Virus record (IMG/VR): IMGVR_UViG_3300027759_003827
Coordinates: 1 to 64,000 of that record
Length of the DNA stretch: 64,000 nucleotides
Origin: a virus
Direction: 5' to 3' (one strand)
In this document: piece by piece, positions 38,022 to 62,072 of the stretch
Layout of the letters: each line of letters opens with the position of its first letter
How positions within the stretch are numbered: the stretch's first letter is position 1
Notes under the pieces: model-generated
What the model saw: only the letters and a program-made list of their open reading frames with translations
Databases searched by the model: none
Told to the model about the DNA's origin: nothing
Translations under genes and position numbers: made by a program

Positions 38022-38036
38022 ATAATTTAAGTTTAG

Positions 38037-38107
38037 TTCCCACTCATGGATTCGAACCACAACAAACAGTACCAAAAACTGTCGTACTACCGTTATACTA
38101 AATGGGA
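38037..38107 (-). tRNA. tRNA-Gln (anticodon UUG)
   Basis: 71 nt. Acceptor TCCCATT/AGTGGGA with A73, D arm GTA...TAC with the conserved GG, anticodon stem ACAGT/ACTGT with loop TTTTGGT (anticodon TTG), T arm TGTGG-TTCGAAT-CCATG. CCA is not encoded. Confidence 0.9.
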
Positions 38108-38115
38108 TGAAAGAG

Positions 38116-38200
38116 CGGAAAGACAGGGATTCGAACCCCAGAACCTATTACAGTTGCCGGTTTTCAAGACCGGTGCATTCAACCACTCTGCCATCTTTCC
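38116..38200 (-). tRNA. tRNA-Ser (anticodon UGA)
   Basis: 85 nt, class II with a long variable arm. Acceptor GGAAAGA/TCTTTCC, discriminator G, anticodon stem CCGGT/ACCGG with loop CTTGAAA (TGA), T arm GGGGTTCGAATCCC. CCA is not encoded. Confidence 0.93.
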
Positions 38201-38316
38201 GTTTAACCTAGCACCATCTCTAGGTCGTGTCCCTTCTAAGGTGTTACCTCTGACTGTCCATGCATGGAGTGGGATTCTGTCTCTGGTTGGCGGTTCACTA
38301 CTCCGCTTTAGCTCTG
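38201..38316. other. Structured gap between two tRNAs
   Basis: 116 bases with no tRNA T-arm signature and no ORF of note, but stable hairpins: ACCTAG/CTAGGT around 38207-38226 and a GGAGT/ACTCC pair around 38265-38305. More G+C than the genes around it. Could be a decayed tRNA or processing signal. Confidence 0.35.
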
Positions 38317-38389
38317 AGCCTCGCTACGGACTTGAACCGCAGACCTGCTGATTACAAATCAGCTGCTCTACCAGCTGAGCTAGCAAGGC
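38317..38389 (-). tRNA. tRNA-Thr (anticodon UGU)
   Basis: 73 nt. Acceptor GCCTTGC/GCGAGGC with T73, D arm GCTC-AGCTGGTA-GAGC, anticodon stem GCTGA/TCAGC with loop TTTGTAA (TGT), T arm TGCGG-TTCAAGT-CCGTA. CCA is not encoded. Confidence 0.92.
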
Positions 38390-38392
38390 AAA

Positions 38393-38713
38393 TGCAACTT
38401 TTAAAGAGATTACCCTATGAGTTGCCAACATCGCCGACATACGATTCGGGGCTATTAAGCGAGCAGATCTTACGGTATGCCACGGCCGTCTTCGTCGTTC
38501 CACGTTCGAACGATAATAAATTCAGGAAAGTAGAAGATGGGTGCGTGGACATCTACTTTTACGATTGGCATTTCTAACCGCGAGGTACCCGCCCTTTCTA
38601 CAGTTAAAGGATACATTCCAATCAACCTTTAATATTATAACAACTACCTACAATTTTTCAAAGTCGCCTCCTCGTCATGCGATGGTTATACCCGCGGCAG
38701 GTAGTAGTTTTTG
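38393..38713. other. 320-base stretch without a recognised gene inside the tRNA array
   Basis: G+C is higher than in neighbouring coding DNA. It contains an ACTACCT/AGGTAGT 7-bp acceptor-like pair spanning about 38642-38704 without a T arm, and a long AAAGTAGA..TCTACTTT hairpin with a T-run around 38526-38560. A 33-codon leftward ORF (38470-38571) is the only notable frame. The content is probably structured RNA, perhaps relics of tRNAs. Confidence 0.4.
38470..38571 (-). CDS. Possible 33-residue ORF in the RNA array
   Basis: ATG at 38569-38571, TAA at 38470-38472, product MPIVKVDVHAPIFYFPEFII and so on. It overlaps the hairpin region, has no clear leader, and may be chance. Listed because it is the only intact frame in the stretch. 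Confidence 0.2.
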   Translation of the reverse strand: MPIVKVDVHAPIFYFPEFIIVRTWNDEDGRGIP

Positions 38714-38785
38714 TTGCAAGAGAAGGATTCGAACCTCCGACCCCTAGGTTATGAGCCTAGTGAGCTACCTCTGCTCTATCTTGCG
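38714..38785 (-). tRNA. Initiator-like tRNA-Met (anticodon CAU)
   Basis: 72 nt. Loop CTCATAA gives CAT. Aligning U8 and the T arm (GGAGG-TTCGAAT-CCTTC) puts C1 opposite A72, the mismatch that marks bacterial initiator tRNAs, with A73. The anticodon stem CTAGG/CCTAG has only two of the three G-C pairs usual for initiators. Three bases separate it from the tmRNA's 3' CCA. Confidence 0.85.
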
Positions 38786-38788
38786 GTA

Positions 38789-39217
38789 TGGTGGAGATGG
38801 AGGGATTCGAACCCTCGTCTCCAGAAGTATAAATAATACCATTCTTACATGCTTTAGATCTACATTTTAAGCTGATCAGTAAAGGGCCGTACAGTTAAGT
38901 ACCAGTTACCACCACTTGGTTTTATGACTACCAAGAAACTCCCAGAAGGAGCAGAGCTATAATACTGAGACTATAGCGGGGTTCACAATCCTTATTTAAT
39001 GAGTCGATTGTGAGTACTCATCGAATTCTGTTCCAAGGTATTCGCACCCGATGCAATTAAGCCGCTACTGCGTACTCGTTCGCGCCTACGAAAGACATTA
39101 AGTCTTCGAAGGTCATAGTTGACATTTCGTCGTTTGTTGTTCGATAGAATATTTGAGTTCTACCACCTCTTGCATGCGATACTATCCATCTCATCTGGAT
39201 CAAGTCCAGGCATCCCC
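38789..39217 (-). ncRNA. ssrA: tmRNA (ssrA), complete, 429 nt
   Basis: 5' GGGGATG (39211-39217) pairs with 3' CATCTCC (one G-U), followed by A-CCA encoded at 38789-38792. The T arm GAGGG-TTCGAAT-CCCTC is perfect. The tag frame is GCG AAC GAG TAC GCA GTA GCG GCT TAA (39057-39083): tag ANEYAVAA, with a TAGGC just before the GCG resume codon, as in E. coli TAGTC-GCA. Several hairpins follow the tag, consistent with pseudoknots. It rescues stalled ribosomes and marks incomplete proteins for proteolysis. Rare in phages. Confidence 0.9.
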
Positions 39218-44179: not shown

Positions 44180-46291
44180 TTAGAAGTTGTTATATCCTGT
44201 TAATTTAATTTGTACTCTATTTAAATTAATGCCTAGTTGATTACCGTTGATCGCACTAGCATCCATTGTAGATGAAACATTTATAGATGTTAAAATGTCT
44301 ACCCCGTTACCTATTGTTGAGAACTTTAATTTAAATGGAGTAGAAACTCCAGTAATAGCTGTTTTATTATTTTGATCTAAAGCTCCAAACTTAACCTTAC
44401 CGTTCTTAGCGTTTGCAAATATAAACCAAGTATTGGGTAGAGTTGATACTAATTCTTCAAACTTAAGCTTAGTTGGATCATATTCGAACTGAAATTGTAA
44501 GCCTCCTACGTTAGCTCCTTTAGTATCAATTGCGACTGGTATTTCTATATTATTAGATGTTATAGTCGTGTTTGTTAAGTTAACATCTATAGCAGTTATA
44601 TCATAAGGAGTATTAATGAAACTCGTATTTGAAATAGACATATTTTTAAATACAGTATTAGTCTGTAAGCTATTCAAAGCATTTGTTTGAACTGTTGAAG
44701 TTCCGCTAGTAGAAGTTACAACTTGAGATGAATGAGATCTGTTTACATCTCCCCATAACAGGTATTTTAGGTTTAAGAAAGCATTTGTACCTAATACATC
44801 TGTCTTAAAGTAGGTCTTAGGATATGTAACAGTACTCCAGTTTGAAGTTGTTATGCTTCCCCAAGATGAATTAGGGTTCATATCAAAAGTAAACTCTGCT
44901 CTTAATGCATAATCTACACCTCCGTTATTAATATCTCTTATATAGCTTAAATATACAGATGAACCGTCTTTAGCTTTAAGTAAAGTCGAAGGTACTCTAT
45001 ATTGAGCCCATGAAGCATCTTCAGATACATACTCAACTGGACCTGTGTATATGTCAAATAATTGAACACTCTTAACTTTGTTAGGAAGAGTTCCTGTTGG
45101 AAACTTTCTCATATCGATACGTAAAGTACTAAACGTAGTTCCTGGAGTTACATAGCTCCATTCTACCTGTCCGCCTATCGTAGCTACATCTGCTGCTCTC
45201 CAAGTAGGTAAGCTCATCCAGCCGTTTGTACCTGCTACATATCCTACAGGTATCGTCATTAGAGTATCTAGTCCGGCAACTTGACCTAACAGTCTAGGTA
45301 AGTCTCCGCCGTCTATTACCCTATTCCTATTAATGTCTGCAGCATACAGAGATTGGCCTGTATTTAAGTTAGTACCTTTAGTTCCGTCTAGTCCCATAGA
45401 AGTAAATTCGGCTTGTGCTGTAGTAAAGTCGGATATTGTAATAGCTGAATTATAAATTTTATAGATGCTGTCTATACTGTACATTAAAGTAACGTCGTAT
45501 ACTTTATTTGCTGCTAATAGAGATTGATTAATATCTACAGATCCGTCAGATAACACTGAGAATAGTTGACCTTGGTTTGTAACTGTGTCTCTAAATGATA
45601 GCTTTAAATTAGATAAATTATATAAATTAGAATTTAAGTCAACTTTTGCGGTTACATACTTACCGAAGTTCTGATTCATATTAATTTGAGTAGACAGTGG
45701 ACTGTCCATAAATGTTGGAGCTTGAACACCTTGCGCATCCCATCCAGCAACAAAGTTCAATATAACAGGGTTGAATGAATTTGCTGTTGATGCTACCTTT
45801 AATTTAAATCTTACAATTAACATTCTATCGTAAGATGTATAAGGCATTGCCGATGTTGTTGCCCAGGTTAAAGTTGCTCTAAGAATTGCATTAGAACCGT
45901 TAGCATTATACACGTAAGTTGCATTGGAAACATACCTCTGTGTACCGTTTGTATAAGTACTATTTCCTGCGTAAGTATAGCTAGGATAGTTTTGCCAAGA
46001 TAGTTGTATGTTAGAACCAGCAGGGAGTATTCCGCCGTTACCGCCAGTACCTGTATGATTAACTGAAACTACTTCAAAGTTTGTCATATCATACTGCAAA
46101 TCAAACATTAGCTGTCTTGTAGTTGCATCGCTGTTACCGTTTGCTTGAATTATGACGTCAAACTGATCTCCTCTATTAATAGCACCGCCAGTTGTACTAG
46201 CAATAACTCTTGTATCAGAGAATTTAAATTTAATTTGTCCGAAAGATGTTAATCCTACAAACAGTAGGATAAGTGTCAATAAATGTTTCAT
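44180..46291 (-). CDS. Large secreted protein with cohesin- and dockerin-like modules
   Basis: 703 residues. Signal peptide MKHLLTLILLFVGLTSFGQ. Two dockerin-like calcium motifs are present: YAADINRNRVIDGGDLPRLL (about 315-334) and LLWGDVNRSHSSQVVTS (about 511-527). A C-terminal cohesin-like module includes VGGLQFQFEYDPTKLKFEEL (about 607-626). Many Thr/Ser/Asn-rich beta strands lie in between. Such parts make non-covalent protein assemblies on cell surfaces. It sits between lipoprotein, CsgG-like and small membrane genes. Could be a virion fibre or a host-surface protein; location unproven. Confidence 0.7.
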   Translation of the reverse strand: MKHLLTLILLFVGLTSFGQIKFKFSDTRVIASTTGGAINRGDQFDVIIQANGNSDATTRQLMFDLQYDMTNFEVVSVNHTGTGGNGGILPAGSNIQLSWQNYPSYTYAGNSTYTNGTQRYVSNATYVYNANGSNAILRATLTWATTSAMPYTSYDRMLIVRFKLKVASTANSFNPVILNFVAGWDAQGVQAPTFMDSPLSTQINMNQNFGKYVTAKVDLNSNLYNLSNLKLSFRDTVTNQGQLFSVLSDGSVDINQSLLAANKVYDVTLMYSIDSIYKIYNSAITISDFTTAQAEFTSMGLDGTKGTNLNTGQSLYAADINRNRVIDGGDLPRLLGQVAGLDTLMTIPVGYVAGTNGWMSLPTWRAADVATIGGQVEWSYVTPGTTFSTLRIDMRKFPTGTLPNKVKSVQLFDIYTGPVEYVSEDASWAQYRVPSTLLKAKDGSSVYLSYIRDINNGGVDYALRAEFTFDMNPNSSWGSITTSNWSTVTYPKTYFKTDVLGTNAFLNLKYLLWGDVNRSHSSQVVTSTSGTSTVQTNALNSLQTNTVFKNMSISNTSFINTPYDITAIDVNLTNTTITSNNIEIPVAIDTKGANVGGLQFQFEYDPTKLKFEELVSTLPNTWFIFANAKNGKVKFGALDQNNKTAITGVSTPFKLKFSTIGNGVDILTSINVSSTMDASAINGNQLGINLNRVQIKLTGYNNF

Positions 46292-48280: not shown

Positions 48281-49918
48281 TTAATACATGCCCATGTTCG
48301 GGTCTTGTTCTTGCTTCTTCTTATCGTCTCTCTTTTCGAATATAACTGATTCTGTTGTTAGAATAGTTCCTGCTACAGATGCTGCATTCTCTAAAGCTGT
48401 ACGAGTTACCTTAGCTGGATCTAATAAACCTGCTGTAAATGCATCTACTATTTCTTGCTTCTTAGCATCATAAGTAAAGGAATCTGCCTCTGTTGCATTT
48501 TTTAAGATTGAATAGTAATCTTCAATACCGCAGTTACTTAGGATAGTCTTAAATGGTGCGTAACACGTTTTCTTTACAATATCAAAACCTAATAATTCAT
48601 CTGATGATGTTTCTCTAGGTAAGATTGGTAAATTGTTAACTGCTTTAATTAAAGCAATACCGCCACCAGGAACAACTCCTTCTGTTAATGCTGCTTTAGT
48701 AGCAAATAGAGCATCTTCTACTCTATCTTTTCTCTCTTTAATTTCAATATCAGAATTACCTCCTACTGAAATAATAGCTACACCGCCGACTAGTTTACCT
48801 AATCTTTCTTGTAATTTCTCTTTCTCGTAGAATGAAGTAGCTTTCTCAATTTGATCTTTAATCTCTTGAGCACGTGCTGTAATCTTCTCTACCTCTCCAT
48901 TACCATCTACGATAGTAGTTGTTTCTTTAGCTACGTTAACTGTTCTAGCTTTACCGAACATCTCTAAAAGTTGAACAGGAGTTAATTTATCTAACTTGTG
49001 TCCTTTGTCTTTAGAGATAACTGTACCGCCTGTTAAGATAGCTAAGTCCTCTAAAATTAAAGTTCTTCTTTCGCCAAAGTCTGGAGCTTTAACTGCTGCT
49101 ACTGAAACAATACCTCTCATCTTATTTACAATCAAAGTAGCTAATGCTTCATCTTCGATATCTTCTGCAACGATTAATAAAGGTTTATTATCTGAATTTA
49201 CTTTGCTTAATGCATTTAATAATTCAGCTGCTTTAGTAATACGTCCATCGTAAATTAAAATATAGGGTTCAGTTAGAGAAGCATTCATCGTAGTGTTATT
49301 AGTAACAAAATATGGAGATTTATAACCTCTATCAAATTGCATCCCTTCTACAATCTCTAAACTAGTTTCACCTGTTTTAGATTCTTCAATAGTAACGATA
49401 CCTTCTCTTCCTACCTTTTCAATAGCTGTAGAAATTAAGTTCCCTACTTCTACATCGCCGTTAGCTGAGATAGTAGCTACTTGTTGGATTTGATCTTGCG
49501 AACTTACATCCTTAGCAATCTTTTTAATTTGCTCTACTATTTGTGCTACATACTTATCGATACCTTTTTTTACCTCTACTGGATTAGAACCTTGGTTAAT
49601 TAACTTTAAACCTTCTTCTACCATAGTAGCTGCAAGTAAAGTAGATGTAGTAGTACCATCGCCTGCTTCGTTAGCAGACTTAATAGATACTTGCTTTACT
49701 AATTGTGCACCTAAATCTTCTACTTGGTCTTCTAACTCATGAAATGACTTAGCTACTGTAACGCCGTCTTTAGTTACTTTTACTTCTCCTGATTGATCTT
49801 TAATCAATACTGTTCTACCGCCTGGACCTAGTGTTGAGGATACGGAATGGTTTAATTGTCTAATACCTGCTAGTAATTTATTCTTTAGCTCAATTCCAAA
49901 AACTGTCTGTGTTGCCAT
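48281..49918 (-). CDS. groL: Chaperonin GroEL
   Basis: 545 residues. TLGPGGR (29-35), DGVTVAK (51-57), GDGTTT (86-91; ATP site) and [10 protein letters not shown] fit GroEL. The C-terminus is ...EQDPNMGMY, without the GGM-repeat tail of E. coli. Phage chaperonins fold capsid proteins or late proteins. Immediately after GroES (2 bases). Confidence 0.96.
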
Positions 49919-55080: not shown

Positions 55081-55248
55081 TTATTTTTTCTTTTTTGTAT
55101 ATGGAAACATTCTATTTAAAATATTCTTTCTTCTAGTACATCCACAATCTTCATACCCAAGCATATGAGCAATCTTATCTGCTAGTCTATCAATATAGAA
55201 AAACTTTAGCACTTTAGCAACCGTATCTCCTAGTCCTTGTGATTTCAT
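55081..55248 (-). CDS. Conserved 55-residue phage protein with CGC motif
   Basis: ATG at 55246-55248, TAA at 55081-55083. MKSQGLGDTVAKVLKFFYID then LADKIAHMLG and EDCGCTRRKNILNRMFPY follow a phage pattern I know (SQGLGDT-x-AK...DCGC-x-x-RR-x-xLN). Unassigned. One-base overlap with folE. Confidence 0.65.
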   Translation of the reverse strand: MKSQGLGDTVAKVLKFFYIDRLADKIAHMLGYEDCGCTRRKNILNRMFPYTKKKK

Positions 55249-55958
55249 TATTTACGTGGATAACCTTTAGCAAATTCATAAAATTCTAATCTAGCTGAAT
55301 CTTCATTTAAGAATGATCCGCTTAACTTAGATGTCTTCATACTAGCACCTTGATGCTTAACTCCTCTACAGCTTACGCAGTTATGAGTAGCTTCAATCAT
55401 TACTGCAACTCCTATATTACCTTCGCAAATCTGATCTACTGCATTGTGAATGGCTACAGTTAATTGCTCTTGAATTGCGCCTCTTCTACTAAAATGCTCT
55501 ACTATACGATTTAATTTACTTAAACCTACTACTCTACCTTCTAAAGTAGGAATATAAGCAATATGACATAAACCGTTAATAGTCTGATGATGGTGAGAAC
55601 ACATACTCGTAATAGGAATACCTCCTTCGAATACTACGCCGTCATAGCCATCGCTTGGAAAGCTCGTAACAAAATCTAATGGCTCATACCTACCTTTCCA
55701 TAAGTCATTTACATAAGCTTTAGCTACTCTTCTTGGAGTATTAGAACTATTAGGATCGTTCTCCCAGTCTACACCTAATGCAGTTAGAAACTTACCGTAA
55801 TGCACAGTAGCTTCTTCAATAATAGCTAACTTTTGCTTATCACTTAAAGAATACTGGCCGTTCTTAATAGCATCTCTTAAATAAGTGCTAATACCATTGG
55901 CGAAACCTGGTTGAGCTAATTCTAAGCTCTCAATATCTATGTTTTTATTTCTATTCAT
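55248..55958 (-). CDS. folE: GTP cyclohydrolase I
   Basis: 236 residues. SMCSHHHQTINGLCHIAYIP (zinc Cys and His), GLSKLNRIVEHFSRR (GTP binding) and SCRGVKHQGASMKT (second Cys) fit FolE. Makes dihydroneopterin triphosphate, the first step to both folate and 7-deazaguanine. Here it starts the queuosine-type pathway with queD, queE, queC. Confidence 0.96.
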   Translation of the reverse strand: MNRNKNIDIESLELAQPGFANGISTYLRDAIKNGQYSLSDKQKLAIIEEATVHYGKFLTALGVDWENDPNSSNTPRRVAKAYVNDLWKGRYEPLDFVTSFPSDGYDGVVFEGGIPITSMCSHHHQTINGLCHIAYIPTLEGRVVGLSKLNRIVEHFSRRGAIQEQLTVAIHNAVDQICEGNIGVAVMIEATHNCVSCRGVKHQGASMKTSKLSGSFLNEDSARLEFYEFAKGYPRK

Positions 55959-56498: not shown

Positions 56499-57068
56499 CT
56501 ACTTTTTATCAAACTTCCAAATATTAGTAAAGAAATGTACCCAAGAACTTAGAGAAGTCTCTCGAAGTATGGCATAAGCTTCATCTATAGTATTTGCTCT
56601 GTTCATAACCTGATAAGCGGATACAATCTCACCGGCATCTAATTCCGGAATTACTTTATGAACTACTGATCCACAGTACGGATACTTCTCTTGATTTCCA
56701 GCAATATCCTCTTGCTTATTAAAGCCTTTCAATTCTGGATATACAGTAATTAGAGCTGGATGACCATTAAACATTTGGCCTTTAAATTGAATAAATACGT
56801 CTTCTGGAATAATTCGTAAGAATCCGTGTAACGTAACTAGTTCTTTTTCTAGTATTCCTGATCTTAAGTATTGATCTACAGTAGGCTTATTAGGAAGTAC
56901 TACTATCTCTACATTATTTTTCCCAAAGATTCTCATGTTCTTTTCAGAAATGTTAGTAACTCTATTAGTTACAAGTAAACTAGGGAGAATCCCAAGCATT
57001 TCACTAATAGCTATTACTTCAGAACCTGTCTGAGATACTAGTACTCCCCAATTGCTTAACACTTTCAT
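56499..57068 (-). CDS. PurN-like formyltransferase
   Basis: 189 residues. FLRIIPEDVFIQFKGQMFNG then HPALITVYPELKGFN is the N-x-HP active-site region, and GSVVHKVIPELDAGEIVSAY is the family's GxxVH-x-V...D-x-G-x-I stretch. The catalytic Asp is the D of ELDAGEI. PurN uses 10-formyl-THF. Placed between a QueF-like reductase and a kinase-like gene, it may formylate a base intermediate rather than GAR; sugar N-formyl transfer is another option. Overlaps QueF-like by one base. Confidence 0.78.
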   Translation of the reverse strand: MKVLSNWGVLVSQTGSEVIAISEMLGILPSLLVTNRVTNISEKNMRIFGKNNVEIVVLPNKPTVDQYLRSGILEKELVTLHGFLRIIPEDVFIQFKGQMFNGHPALITVYPELKGFNKQEDIAGNQEKYPYCGSVVHKVIPELDAGEIVSAYQVMNRANTIDEAYAILRETSLSSWVHFFTNIWKFDKK

Positions 57069-57985
57069 TATTGTCCCATTGCTTTTTTAGTATAGTAGCC
57101 TGTATCAATTAATGCACGAGGAATTAATTCTTCTCTAGTTGCACGAACAGGATTGATATCTAATGAACCTCGTCTTGCATACAACAACATTACTACACAA
57201 TCTTTAACGTCAGGATGCTTTGTAATAGCTGTAAATAACTTCTCGCTACAGAATTCATGAAATTCGTTTACTTCACGTAATGCAATTACCTCTTTCAAAA
57301 GACCTTGTAAATCTACACGTCCTTTCCTAGTAGTAATATGGAAATAAGCAGCACCTGTATCTTTCTGCTTTGTATGTCTACATCTTGATCTCAAGATACC
57401 AGTCATTACAGAGATATCGTCAGACGTTTCAGCAGGTATAATAGTAAAGTGATTTTCTTTACCGGAGTAATCGGTAATTTCCATCTCTTCTAATTTCTTA
57501 TTACCTACCATACGAAATAAATCGTAGTAGCCTTCTCCTGGATCGCCTTCGAACATTAATTGCTCTCCTTCTCTAAAGAATGATACTCTTACTTCTTTAC
57601 CAATGCATGCACTGATATCTTTCTTTACTTGATTCTCATAATTCTCAACAGCTTCAACAATCGTATCGCCCATCTTACACATATCGAATGTATTAAGGTA
57701 TAACTTAAACGATTTTGATTCTACCATAAATTCTGAATCAGCAGGACATACTATTTTTAACGTACCTGCAATAGGTAGGCCGTTATTTAACAAGAAGGTT
57801 GATTCATGACAATGCCACGTATCGTAACCTACAAATTCATCTCCTTTAATACCCCAGTCTCCACGAGCTAATGCTCTTGGCATAGGGTTTAATTGACTTG
57901 GATCAAAGGTGTCTGTATAGACTGCATATGAGTTAGCTGACCCTAAGGTTTTAGCAGCTACTTCTGACATATTACTTGCTGACAT
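57068..57985 (-). CDS. queF: QueF-like 7-cyano-7-deazaguanine reductase
   Basis: 305 residues, two-module length. ESKSFKLYL (89-97) is the QueF signature; C202 (SRCRHTKQ) and D209, seven apart, match catalytic Cys190 and Asp197 of E. coli QueF; NEFHEF (240-245) is the substrate loop. It should reduce preQ0 to preQ1 with NADPH. Overlaps DpdA-like by 14 bases. Confidence 0.88.
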   Translation of the reverse strand: MSASNMSEVAAKTLGSANSYAVYTDTFDPSQLNPMPRALARGDWGIKGDEFVGYDTWHCHESTFLLNNGLPIAGTLKIVCPADSEFMVESKSFKLYLNTFDMCKMGDTIVEAVENYENQVKKDISACIGKEVRVSFFREGEQLMFEGDPGEGYYDLFRMVGNKKLEEMEITDYSGKENHFTIIPAETSDDISVMTGILRSRCRHTKQKDTGAAYFHITTRKGRVDLQGLLKEVIALREVNEFHEFCSEKLFTAITKHPDVKDCVVMLLYARRGSLDINPVRATREELIPRALIDTGYYTKKAMGQ

Positions 57986-58757: not shown

Positions 58758-59603
58758 TTATTTTTTATATTCTGATAAAACTTTTTCTACTTGCGTTTTT
58801 GCAAACTGCCAGCTAACAGGTCCCATTTCGTCTGCATACTCTACCGGATCAGGACGACCTAGCTTAATAAACGCTTCGATACGTTCTACTGATGCTGCTG
58901 ACTTATAATCAGAATACCAGATACCTTGAGTATCGGACCATGAATGTCTAATAAAGATCGGCTTATAAGAAGTATTCGTACGCTTATATACTTCATTAAA
59001 ATCTAAACCTAATGCTTCACACGATCTTAAACCATCTTCTAGAATTTCAAATTTAGTTACATCTAAGTAGGGGGTATAAACTGATATTAAATCAGCATCC
59101 CAATTACCAGCTTTAAATGCTTCCATATCTGCATCTCTAAATTCCTGACGGCAGTCAGGGTAAATTGCATGATCTCCTGCGTGAATACCCATTGCAATAG
59201 CTACTTCTTGGCCAATAGAACAATCATCCGTAATAGGTTTAGTTGCAATTGATAGAGCAGCTGCTTGAATCAAAGAGCTAAATATCTTATTACGATTGGG
59301 TACAACAGTTGCTTTCATATTATCCTGTTCGTAATGTCCTTCTGGTACATCTGCACCGCCTGTTACTAAAGCTGAGTTCAATAACTGTTGTAATCCATCT
59401 AATTTAATAACCTGGTACTTTACTTTTTGATTTTTAGAGCTTAAGTACTCTACTAAAGATTTAGCTCTTTCAAGCTCTACTTTATGCTTTTGACCATAAT
59501 CAAAGCCTAATGCTGTTACTTCGTAGCCGTTAGCTAATAAGTGTAATAAAAGAGATGAAGAATCCATCCCGCCTGATAATGATAAAACTGCTTGTTTTGC
59601 CAT
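58758..59603 (-). CDS. queC: QueC-like 7-cyano-7-deazaguanine synthase without zinc cysteines
   Basis: 281 residues. LSLSGGMDSSSLLLHLL (PP-loop, 8-24), VPNRNKIF and GIHAGDHAIYPDCRQEF match QueC. The C-terminal Cys quartet of QueC (C...CxxCxxC) is replaced: the region reads NTSYKPIFIRHSWSD, then WYSDYKSAASVERIEAF. So it should make preQ0 with an altered C-terminal site. Confidence 0.88.
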   Translation of the reverse strand: MAKQAVLSLSGGMDSSSLLLHLLANGYEVTALGFDYGQKHKVELERAKSLVEYLSSKNQKVKYQVIKLDGLQQLLNSALVTGGADVPEGHYEQDNMKATVVPNRNKIFSSLIQAAALSIATKPITDDCSIGQEVAIAMGIHAGDHAIYPDCRQEFRDADMEAFKAGNWDADLISVYTPYLDVTKFEILEDGLRSCEALGLDFNEVYKRTNTSYKPIFIRHSWSDTQGIWYSDYKSAASVERIEAFIKLGRPDPVEYADEMGPVSWQFAKTQVEKVLSEYKK

Positions 59604-60958: not shown

Positions 60959-61246
60959 TTATTTCCAAAATTGATACCAACGCTTTTTAGGAGCTGGTTG
61001 ACATTTACTAAAAGGGTTATCGCCGAATGATACTGCTTTACAGTACTTAGATGTCATCATGTTTAAGAATATTTCATGATACTCTTCGGGTATTGTATCA
61101 AAATCGGCTTGTACTTTAATATCTAAGGAAATACTTCTCTTACCGTTAACTACTAGTGTTAGTATTTCATGACACGTTACTAATTTAGAAGTAGTCATGA
61201 TTAAATTATTACCAGAACCTAAATTTATTTCTTCCATACTATACAT
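60959..61246 (-). CDS. Unknown protein with aromatic basic tail
   Basis: 95 residues; alternative ATG at 61237. Beta-rich (HEILTLVVNGKRSISLDIKV), ending APKKRWYQFWK, a tail that looks like a peptide docking site. Overlaps QueE by 8 bases. Unassigned. Confidence 0.6.
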   Translation of the reverse strand: MYSMEEINLGSGNNLIMTTSKLVTCHEILTLVVNGKRSISLDIKVQADFDTIPEEYHEIFLNMMTSKYCKAVSFGDNPFSKCQPAPKKRWYQFWK

Positions 61247-62072
61247 TTAAAGTTTTATTCCAGGCTGCGATATGCAATCTAGTTAATCCTCTAAATTTAT
61301 ATTTCTTAGCCATCTCCATTACAAATCGAGTTCTTTCTTCGAAGTTAGCTGCATCATCTAAACCTGGCATACAGATTACATTCTCTAAAGGAATATAAAA
61401 GGGTTCAATAAAGTCTCTAAAGATTTCTTTAACATCCTCTTCAGTACTAATAACAAACTTAAATTGGTAGTTATCGTGCTCCATAATACGATTAATAGCT
61501 TTAGGAACAATACGTTGTTTTACTGTCATACCCGAGTTATCCAACTTAGGTGAACAGTTAATTTGATCTAAGCTCTGAAATAATTCTTCTTCGATAAAAT
61601 TAGTACCGTTAGTTTCGATTTCATAGTAGGTATTACGCAAAGAACCTTCTATATCCATCCAATATTCAGTAAAGTTATTAATTGCTACTTGATGTCCTGC
61701 AATAGTAGGTTCACCTCCGGTCCAGATAACACGTACGCGACCATCTAGAATATCCTCGTATACTCCTTCCTCTTTAAATCTATCAAGTAAGTATTGAAAC
61801 TCTTTATCTTCTCCTCTCCATAACCACTGAGATGTAGAATCACAAGTCCAGGTAGCTTTACCTTCTTTAACTAAATCGCCTTCGAAGATTTCACCGTCTT
61901 CTAGTAATTGCTCTTTCATTAAATTATTTGTAAATGCTCTAGACATACCGCACGTTAGGTTACAAATACCTAAACGAACGAAGTATGCAGGAATACCGCT
62001 GCTTATGCCTTCGCCTTGAACTGTATAAAAGTCACTAGTAATAAGTAACTTATTTGGATCTATCTTACTCAT
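61239..62072 (-). CDS. queE: 7-carboxy-7-deazaguanine synthase QueE with expanded radical-SAM loop
   Basis: 277 residues. FYTVQGEGISSGIPAYFVRL and TGGEPTIAG (118-126) fit QueE. The radical-SAM cysteines are C37, C41 and C77 (CNLTC...WTCDS), spaced CX3CX35C instead of a short CX3CX2C-type loop, so an insert of 35 residues lies inside the iron-sulfur loop. NCSPKLDNSG follows. Converts CPH4 to CDG. Confidence 0.88.
   Translation of the reverse strand: MSKIDPNKLLITSDFYTVQGEGISSGIPAYFVRLGICNLTCGMSRAFTNNLMKEQLLEDGEIFEGDLVKEGKATWTCDSTSQWLWRGEDKEFQYLLDRFKEEGVYEDILDGRVRVIWTGGEPTIAGHQVAINNFTEYWMDIEGSLRNTYYEIETNGTNFIEEELFQSLDQINCSPKLDNSGMTVKQRIVPKAINRIMEHDNYQFKFVISTEEDVKEIFRDFIEPFYIPLENVICMPGLDDAANFEERTRFVMEMAKKYKFRGLTRLHIAAWNKTLNV

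Follow-up and report, generated by a model that had tools for sequence, protein, structure and literature searches.

A phage-encoded tmRNA with a probable 24-residue tag, and related tag families in other phages

The tmRNA gene and its surroundings

The window, i.e. the whole stretch of 64,000 nucleotides analysed, is part of an 88.8-kb virus record, which is in turn a fragment of an Immutovirus-like, Flavobacterium-type phage. Its glycosyltransferase and DNA polymerase are nearest to those of Flavobacterium phage immuto (60% and 58%, respectively), and a neighbourhood of GroEL, GTP cyclohydrolases and QueE is common to both. We infer a Flavobacterium-type host from this similarity to immuto.

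A one-piece tmRNA (ssrA) gene was called by ARAGORN on the minus strand, at 38789-39217. The first-pass annotation had claimed a complete tmRNA at the same coordinates, without giving its strand, and had proposed a covariance model as a check: Rfam model RF00023, run with Infernal, accepts the same span at 70.0 bits, the cut-off being 47 (E 3e-25), is matched completely from position 1 to 374, and confirms the claim with a score far above chance. Together with four tRNA genes on the same strand (Met, Thr, Ser and Gln), the tmRNA gene forms a small RNA-gene cluster. The features are listed below, with the evidence for each in brackets; all are on the minus strand.

39211..39217, minus: 5' acceptor strand GGGGAUG, carrying G3 of the G3-U70 pair (sequence; G3-U70 check)
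38789..39217, minus: one-piece tmRNA (ssrA) gene (ARAGORN; RF00023, 70 bits)
39142..39169, minus: pseudoknot 1, S1 GAG/CUC and S2 (U)GGUAGAA/UUCUAUC(G) (sequence pairing; S2 of 8 bp)
39132..39142, minus: 11-nt spacer GAACAACAAAC before the proposed resume codon, with a conserved A at -4 (sequence; role of the -4 A from PMC2481249)
39060..39131, minus: proposed full tag frame of 24 codons, DEMSTMTFEDLMSFVG-ANEYAVAA, resume codon GAC (open frame, codon-level selection, homologous long tags)
39084..39131, minus: putative tag extension of 16 codons, DEMSTMTFEDLMSFVG, family F1, outside the tag read by ARAGORN and by the first-pass annotation (codon-level selection)
39057..39083, minus: ANEYAVAA and stop codon TAA, terminal degron-like part, the sole part read as tag by ARAGORN (ARAGORN)
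38800..38816, minus: T arm GAGGG-UUCGAAU-CCCUC (sequence; RF00023)
38789..38799, minus: 3' acceptor strand CAUCUCC, followed by the ACCA tail (sequence; G3-U70 check)
38713..38785, minus: tRNA-Met(CAT), 3 nt beyond the 3' end of the tmRNA gene (ARAGORN)
38316-38389, minus: tRNA-Thr (ARAGORN)
38115-38200, minus: tRNA-Ser (ARAGORN)
38036-38107, minus: tRNA-Gln (ARAGORN)

The ends of the RNA pair as had been described: the acceptor stem GGGGAUG/CAUCUCC is paired at 7 out of 7 positions, including the alanine identity pair G3-U70; the CCA is encoded in the gene, within the ACCA tail, and the T arm is perfect. The region of pseudoknots 2-4 is mostly unaligned in the Rfam alignment, and the single-sequence fold has a z of -1.95; these pseudoknots can be replaced with activity retained (PMC2481249). 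The phage RNA is probably a working tmRNA, because its tag end is rich in alanine and because G3 is kept opposite U70 in all 106 distinct phage tmRNAs among the matches listed (U70 being fixed by the search pattern, and G3 left free).

Further genes in the window follow the Immutovirus pattern: GroEL, two GTP-cyclohydrolase-family genes, a QueC-like and a QueE-like gene are found at 48281-49918, 55248-55958, 57068-57985, 58758-59603 and 61239-62072. The QueC-, QueE- and GTP-cyclohydrolase-like set suggests 7-deazaguanine DNA modification in this phage; a DpdA DNA-guanine transglycosylase is annotated in Immutovirus. A 703-aa phage-genome protein with a cohesin domain (PF00963) is encoded at 44180-46291. 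In a related phage, 24 tRNA genes form one cluster (L353, G003:20000-35000), and an intact tmRNA was not found.

Extent of the tag frame

In the window, the tag is started by ARAGORN at a GCG, gene position 135 (window 39083), which yields the 8-aa ANEYAVAA, also given as tag in the first-pass annotation. The same frame is open upstream to a GAC at gene position 87 (window 39131), and reads DEMSTMTFEDLMSFVGANEYAVAA (24 aa) from there. The upstream codons are GAC GAA ATG TCA ACT ATG ACC TTC GAA GAC TTA ATG TCT TTC GTA GGC, and are followed by GCG AAC GAG TAC GCA GTA GCG GCT TAA, so that the whole frame is DEMSTMTFEDLMSFVG-ANEYAVAA and a stop.

The two candidate starts differ in their position relative to pseudoknot 1, which ends at gene position 75 or 76 and is followed by the spacer GAACAACAAAC and by GAC. 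The GAC site is 11 nt past the pseudoknot and the GCG site 59 nt, with pseudoknot-1 scores upstream of them of 8.5 and 0, respectively. In E. coli, the resume codon is found 12 nt downstream of pseudoknot 1; A86, at -4, is essential and the main determinant of the frame, while the change U85C is tolerated (PMC2481249). The GAC site, which lies about 11-12 nt past pseudoknot 1 and has A at -4, shows what is expected of a tmRNA, whereas the GCG site fails on distance; a point against GAC is that its -5 position is C rather than U.

The relatives point to the same start. For most of them ARAGORN begins at the codon equivalent to GAC, with tags of 22-27 aa, and for relatives retrieved through the neighbouring glycosyltransferase the long form is printed unaided, e.g. 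DEMSTMTFEDLMSFVGADYALAA. Among the matches listed, 63 relatives have a long tag and an ARAGORN start at positions 83-97; A is present at -4 in 63 out of 63 and U at -5 in 59 out of 63, a tally which is partly circular, as ARAGORN may itself use such a motif. A second UAGGC|GCG site is located at the internal codon of the window, and ARAGORN probably chose this GCG because the UAGGC motif directly precedes it. The A at -4 of the internal site is replaced in 17 out of 56 F1 relatives. An automated test of the pseudoknot-1 position on 56 F1 sequences did not discriminate between the GAC and GCG sites, a clean stem being found only in the window and in a few others.

In order to evaluate whether the extension evolves as protein, synonymous changes were compared between frames. 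In a set of 13 distinct sequences, gathered with no regard to the tag, a fraction of 0.49 of the codon differences is synonymous when read in the tag frame; the two remaining frames, both of which contain stops, give 0.16 and 0.13. Column permutation attained 0.49 in 1 out of 3000 trials, and in no trial that was free of stops. The peptide pattern used in this selection test is looser than those defining the F1 and F2 cores described below. Among the matches listed, 47 distinct F1 cores gave a fraction of 0.378, whereas the shuffles averaged 0.154 and reached that value in 0 out of 400 cases, and 21 F2 cores gave 0.331 against 0.149 (0 out of 400); for F3, with too few sequences, the observed value was reached in 28 out of 400. 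Column shuffling retains the relatedness among the sequences, and the choice of cores by peptide patterns in the tag frame somewhat favours conserved amino acids, with the comparison to the other frames in agreement. By these measures, the extension is under protein-level selection, and the tag family of the window joins such selection to a length of about 20 residues or more, as an extended tag would.

On the evidence of pseudoknot spacing, open frame, selection and long-tag relatives, ANEYAVAA, which makes up the last third of the likely frame, is almost certainly not the whole tag; this is most likely the 24 aa starting at GAC. The typical YAVAA end that had been pointed out stands, since the 24 codons finish with NEYAVAA and a stop. 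That the tag has only the 8 residues, the open frame upstream being a spacer, agrees with the ARAGORN call and with the UAGGC motif right before GCG in the window, but is very improbable: the spacer after pseudoknot 1 would be 59 nt long, the 15 codons upstream evolve as protein-coding sequence, and the A at -4 of the internal site is not constant. The same three points rule out the internal GCG as the main resume site. Dual resumption, at GAC and at the internal GCG, may occur. A stand-alone micropeptide starting at an internal ATG was also considered and rejected, the ATG not being kept in the VELS subgroup, in F2 and in F3.

Tag families and tag exchange among phages

The set of phage tmRNAs, at least 106 distinct ones, was assembled from the matches of a census pattern, from the loci neighbouring the glycosyltransferase and from the window. 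The census pattern describes the tRNA-like domain, sets no condition on the tag and covers one tmRNA clade. Tags of about 22-33 aa are found in 103 of the 106 distinct tmRNAs among the matches listed, the lengths being approximate, as the automatic choice of the resume codon shifts by a few codons; the other three (L214, L229 and L247) have short tags.

Most of the long tags belong to three recurring families. Among the matches listed, F1, E-[LM]-S-x-[MW]-T-[FY]-[DE]-D-x-M-x-F-V-G, has 66 members under a looser rule; F2, R-x-x-x-G-x-x-I-[IL]-x-x-x-F, has 25, and F3, GNTxFWSLVN, has 9. Nearly all tags retain an alanine-rich C-terminus ending in A, mostly -ALAA or -AVAA, while some end in DEATFA or ELELA. 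The DEATFA ends, in the F1 tags of L103, L129, L132 and L133, resemble the -AFA of Mycoplasma. One F1 tag, around position 4210 of L168, ends in VGADYE and a stop, without the alanine-rich end, and is either real or the result of an assembly error.

The coding pattern of F1 was found in 96 viral stretches; slightly relaxed, it had no match among 84,980 bacterial and archaeal species genomes. Within the scope of this search, made for F1, the family appears to be phage-specific. In the same genomes, the tRNA-like-domain pattern found 27 stretches, which yielded 24 ARAGORN tags, of 9-10 aa in 23 cases and of 22 aa in one. This lone bacterial control with a long tag, ANKTSNVVAFQPRAAAPMAMAA, comes from a Pseudomonadota MAG (L304). 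No Pfam or PHROGs family was matched by the tag peptides, and no F1 peptide was found elsewhere in the fetched loci. Queried by tblastn against cultured phages, the 25-aa tag had no match, but neither had a control tag which mycobacteriophage ET08 carries in that collection, so that this negative has no weight.

Tags of different families are carried by one pair of otherwise very similar genes. L102 and L271 scarcely differ in their first 57 nt or, some divergent loops aside, in much of the sequence between stop codon and 3' end; the tag segment is replaced, F1 in the former and F2 in the latter. Because of this one clear case, the tag seems to behave as a swappable cassette; L021 and L271 provide a weaker second example.

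Phage tmRNA as such is known already: it was reported in 402 out of 18,146 phage genomes (PMC9004378), and the tmRNA database holds 79 unique phage tmRNAs (PMC11915505). Rarity in phages, as stated in the first-pass annotation, holds in a relative sense only, in view of the former figure and of the many relatives of the window's phage in which the gene was found again. What is new is the extended, selected and exchangeable tag. In the literature covered, which left most subscription journals outside, neither conserved families of phage tags, nor selection acting on such tags, nor their exchange was found described. Phage tmRNAs have long been listed and their tags hardly examined, and the internal start chosen by ARAGORN conceals the extension in some of them, the window included.

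Possible partners and roles of the tag

No smpB gene (PF01668) was found in the 88.8-kb record, nor in any of the 19 relatives searched, records and isolates together, of which several have 155-190 kb, many of the records being fragments; bacterial control genomes were matched by the same search. The phage smpB that had been suggested as something to look for elsewhere in the genome did not appear, so host SmpB would be required, and is most likely what the phage tmRNA uses.

A ClpP-like serine peptidase (PF00574) is encoded in 8 out of 17 related phage records (L348:4909-5445, L349:4144-4686, L351:3465-4004 and L352:4152-4691; also G003, G010, G019 and G020), with the GxAMS serine motif and the MYHE histidine motif preserved. 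In the six relatives examined, the gene is situated on the upstream side of the tRNA/tmRNA cluster, at some 3-4 kb from the tmRNA wherever there is one, within a conserved block between the glycosyltransferase genes and that cluster. It is absent from the record of the window, and its presence does not strictly track that of tmRNA in the 17 records, in none of which a Lon or a ClpX/ClpB-type unfoldase was found. The proximity of ClpP and tmRNA is a lead, rather than a link.

The reading which we consider reasonably likely is that of an ordinary trans-translation RNA, working on host machinery and writing a phage-specific 24-residue tag that carries an extended degron. Host AlaRS would charge the RNA through G3-U70, and host SmpB and EF-Tu would deliver it where ribosomes have stalled on broken mRNA. 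Translation would resume at GAC, 11 nt past pseudoknot 1, and would add (A)DEMSTMTFEDLMSFVGANEYAVAA to the nascent chain ahead of its release. A ClpXP-type degron (-AVAA) would be retained at the very end, and the 16-residue extension, as a selected peptide, would most likely give a protease or adaptor a further element to recognise. Our best guess is a degron extended as in Mycoplasma, because the extended Mycoplasma tag, which co-evolved with Lon (PMC3985003; PMC11986505), is the nearest precedent, and because a few relatives end in -TFA. Release of stalled ribosomes is the likely role of the RNA, as had been proposed; ribosomes would stay free and truncated chains would be cleared while host mRNA is destroyed, which would benefit a phage degrading that mRNA, with the tag under phage rather than host control.

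It is rather unlikely, though the closest competitor, that the 24-aa tag carries an extension which is no degron at all, and which instead brings in another partner of host or phage origin (such as the phage ClpP-like peptidase, a chaperone or a defence protein) or protects the products from the host adaptor. The phage specificity of F1 peptides and the exchange of tags would be consistent with selection by a variable partner; the tags ending in DEATFA, ELELA or DYE, and the ClpP-like genes upstream of several clusters, point the same way, but the alanine-rich end of nearly all tags is what a degron would have, and ClpP is missing from the window's record and follows tmRNA loosely. More broadly, it may tentatively be suggested that the tags are exchangeable functional peptides, a phage signal of 22-33 residues docking to one particular protein of host or phage, by which the fate of truncated proteins is redirected and whose cassettes are exchanged against a changing partner.

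The first-pass annotation had also raised competition with host tmRNA. That the phage RNA mainly competes in this way, or titrates SmpB, and so shuts down host trans-translation, is improbable: a decoy needs no tag, and the frame found here is open, conserved as protein and longer than usual, with pseudoknot 1, resume spacer and stop codon all kept, so that selection on a long tag would be left unexplained. The failure to find a phage smpB would fit such a competitor, and inhibition of this sort is discussed for the TLD-only RNA of mycobacteriophage DS6A (PMC4131195; PMC11915505). A decaying or captured host tmRNA, functionless in the phage, is hardly credible; although immuto, the best-matched cultured relative, has no tmRNA, the structural elements tested are intact, G3 is invariant among the matches listed, the tag frames are selected, and no bacterial tmRNA with an F1 tag was found in the genomes searched.

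Recurring families of long tags, selected as protein and exchangeable between near-identical tmRNAs, suggest that phages steer the fate of the unfinished protein, beyond the release of the ribosome; for Flavobacterium-type bacteria, these families would represent new signals, made by phages, for degradation or targeting.

The gene was compared with known systems. It shares with bacterial one-piece tmRNA (RF00023) the full covariance match, acceptor stem and T arm, G3-U70, pseudoknot 1, the spacer with A at -4, the alanine-rich tag end and the stop; it differs in the 24-aa tag with a conserved extension, against a most frequent length of 10 aa (PMC11915505), in the resume codon GAC, and in its location within a phage tRNA cluster without smpB. 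An extended tag is found also in Mycoplasma, whose -AFA is approached by the -TFA of some relatives (PMC3985003); there, however, the tag is read by Lon in organisms that lack ClpXP, whereas the phage tags described here mostly end in -ALAA or -AVAA and neither Lon nor a Clp unfoldase was found in the phages. Methylophilales phage Melnitz likewise has its own tmRNA, proposed to sustain translation or to tag host proteins (PMC9004378), but this is permuted, two-piece, riboswitch-controlled and of alphaproteobacterial type. The DS6A RNA is also phage-encoded and tmRNA-derived (PMC4131195); it is without a tag frame, unlike that of the window, where the frame is complete. The tmRNA of mycobacteriophage ET08 (Bxz1 group) is likewise phage-encoded and one-piece, with a long ARAGORN tag, ATDTDATVTDAEIEAFFAEEAAALV (25 aa), unrelated in sequence to that of the window, and its host is Actinobacterial; the other cultured-phage tmRNAs checked have tags of 13-15 aa.
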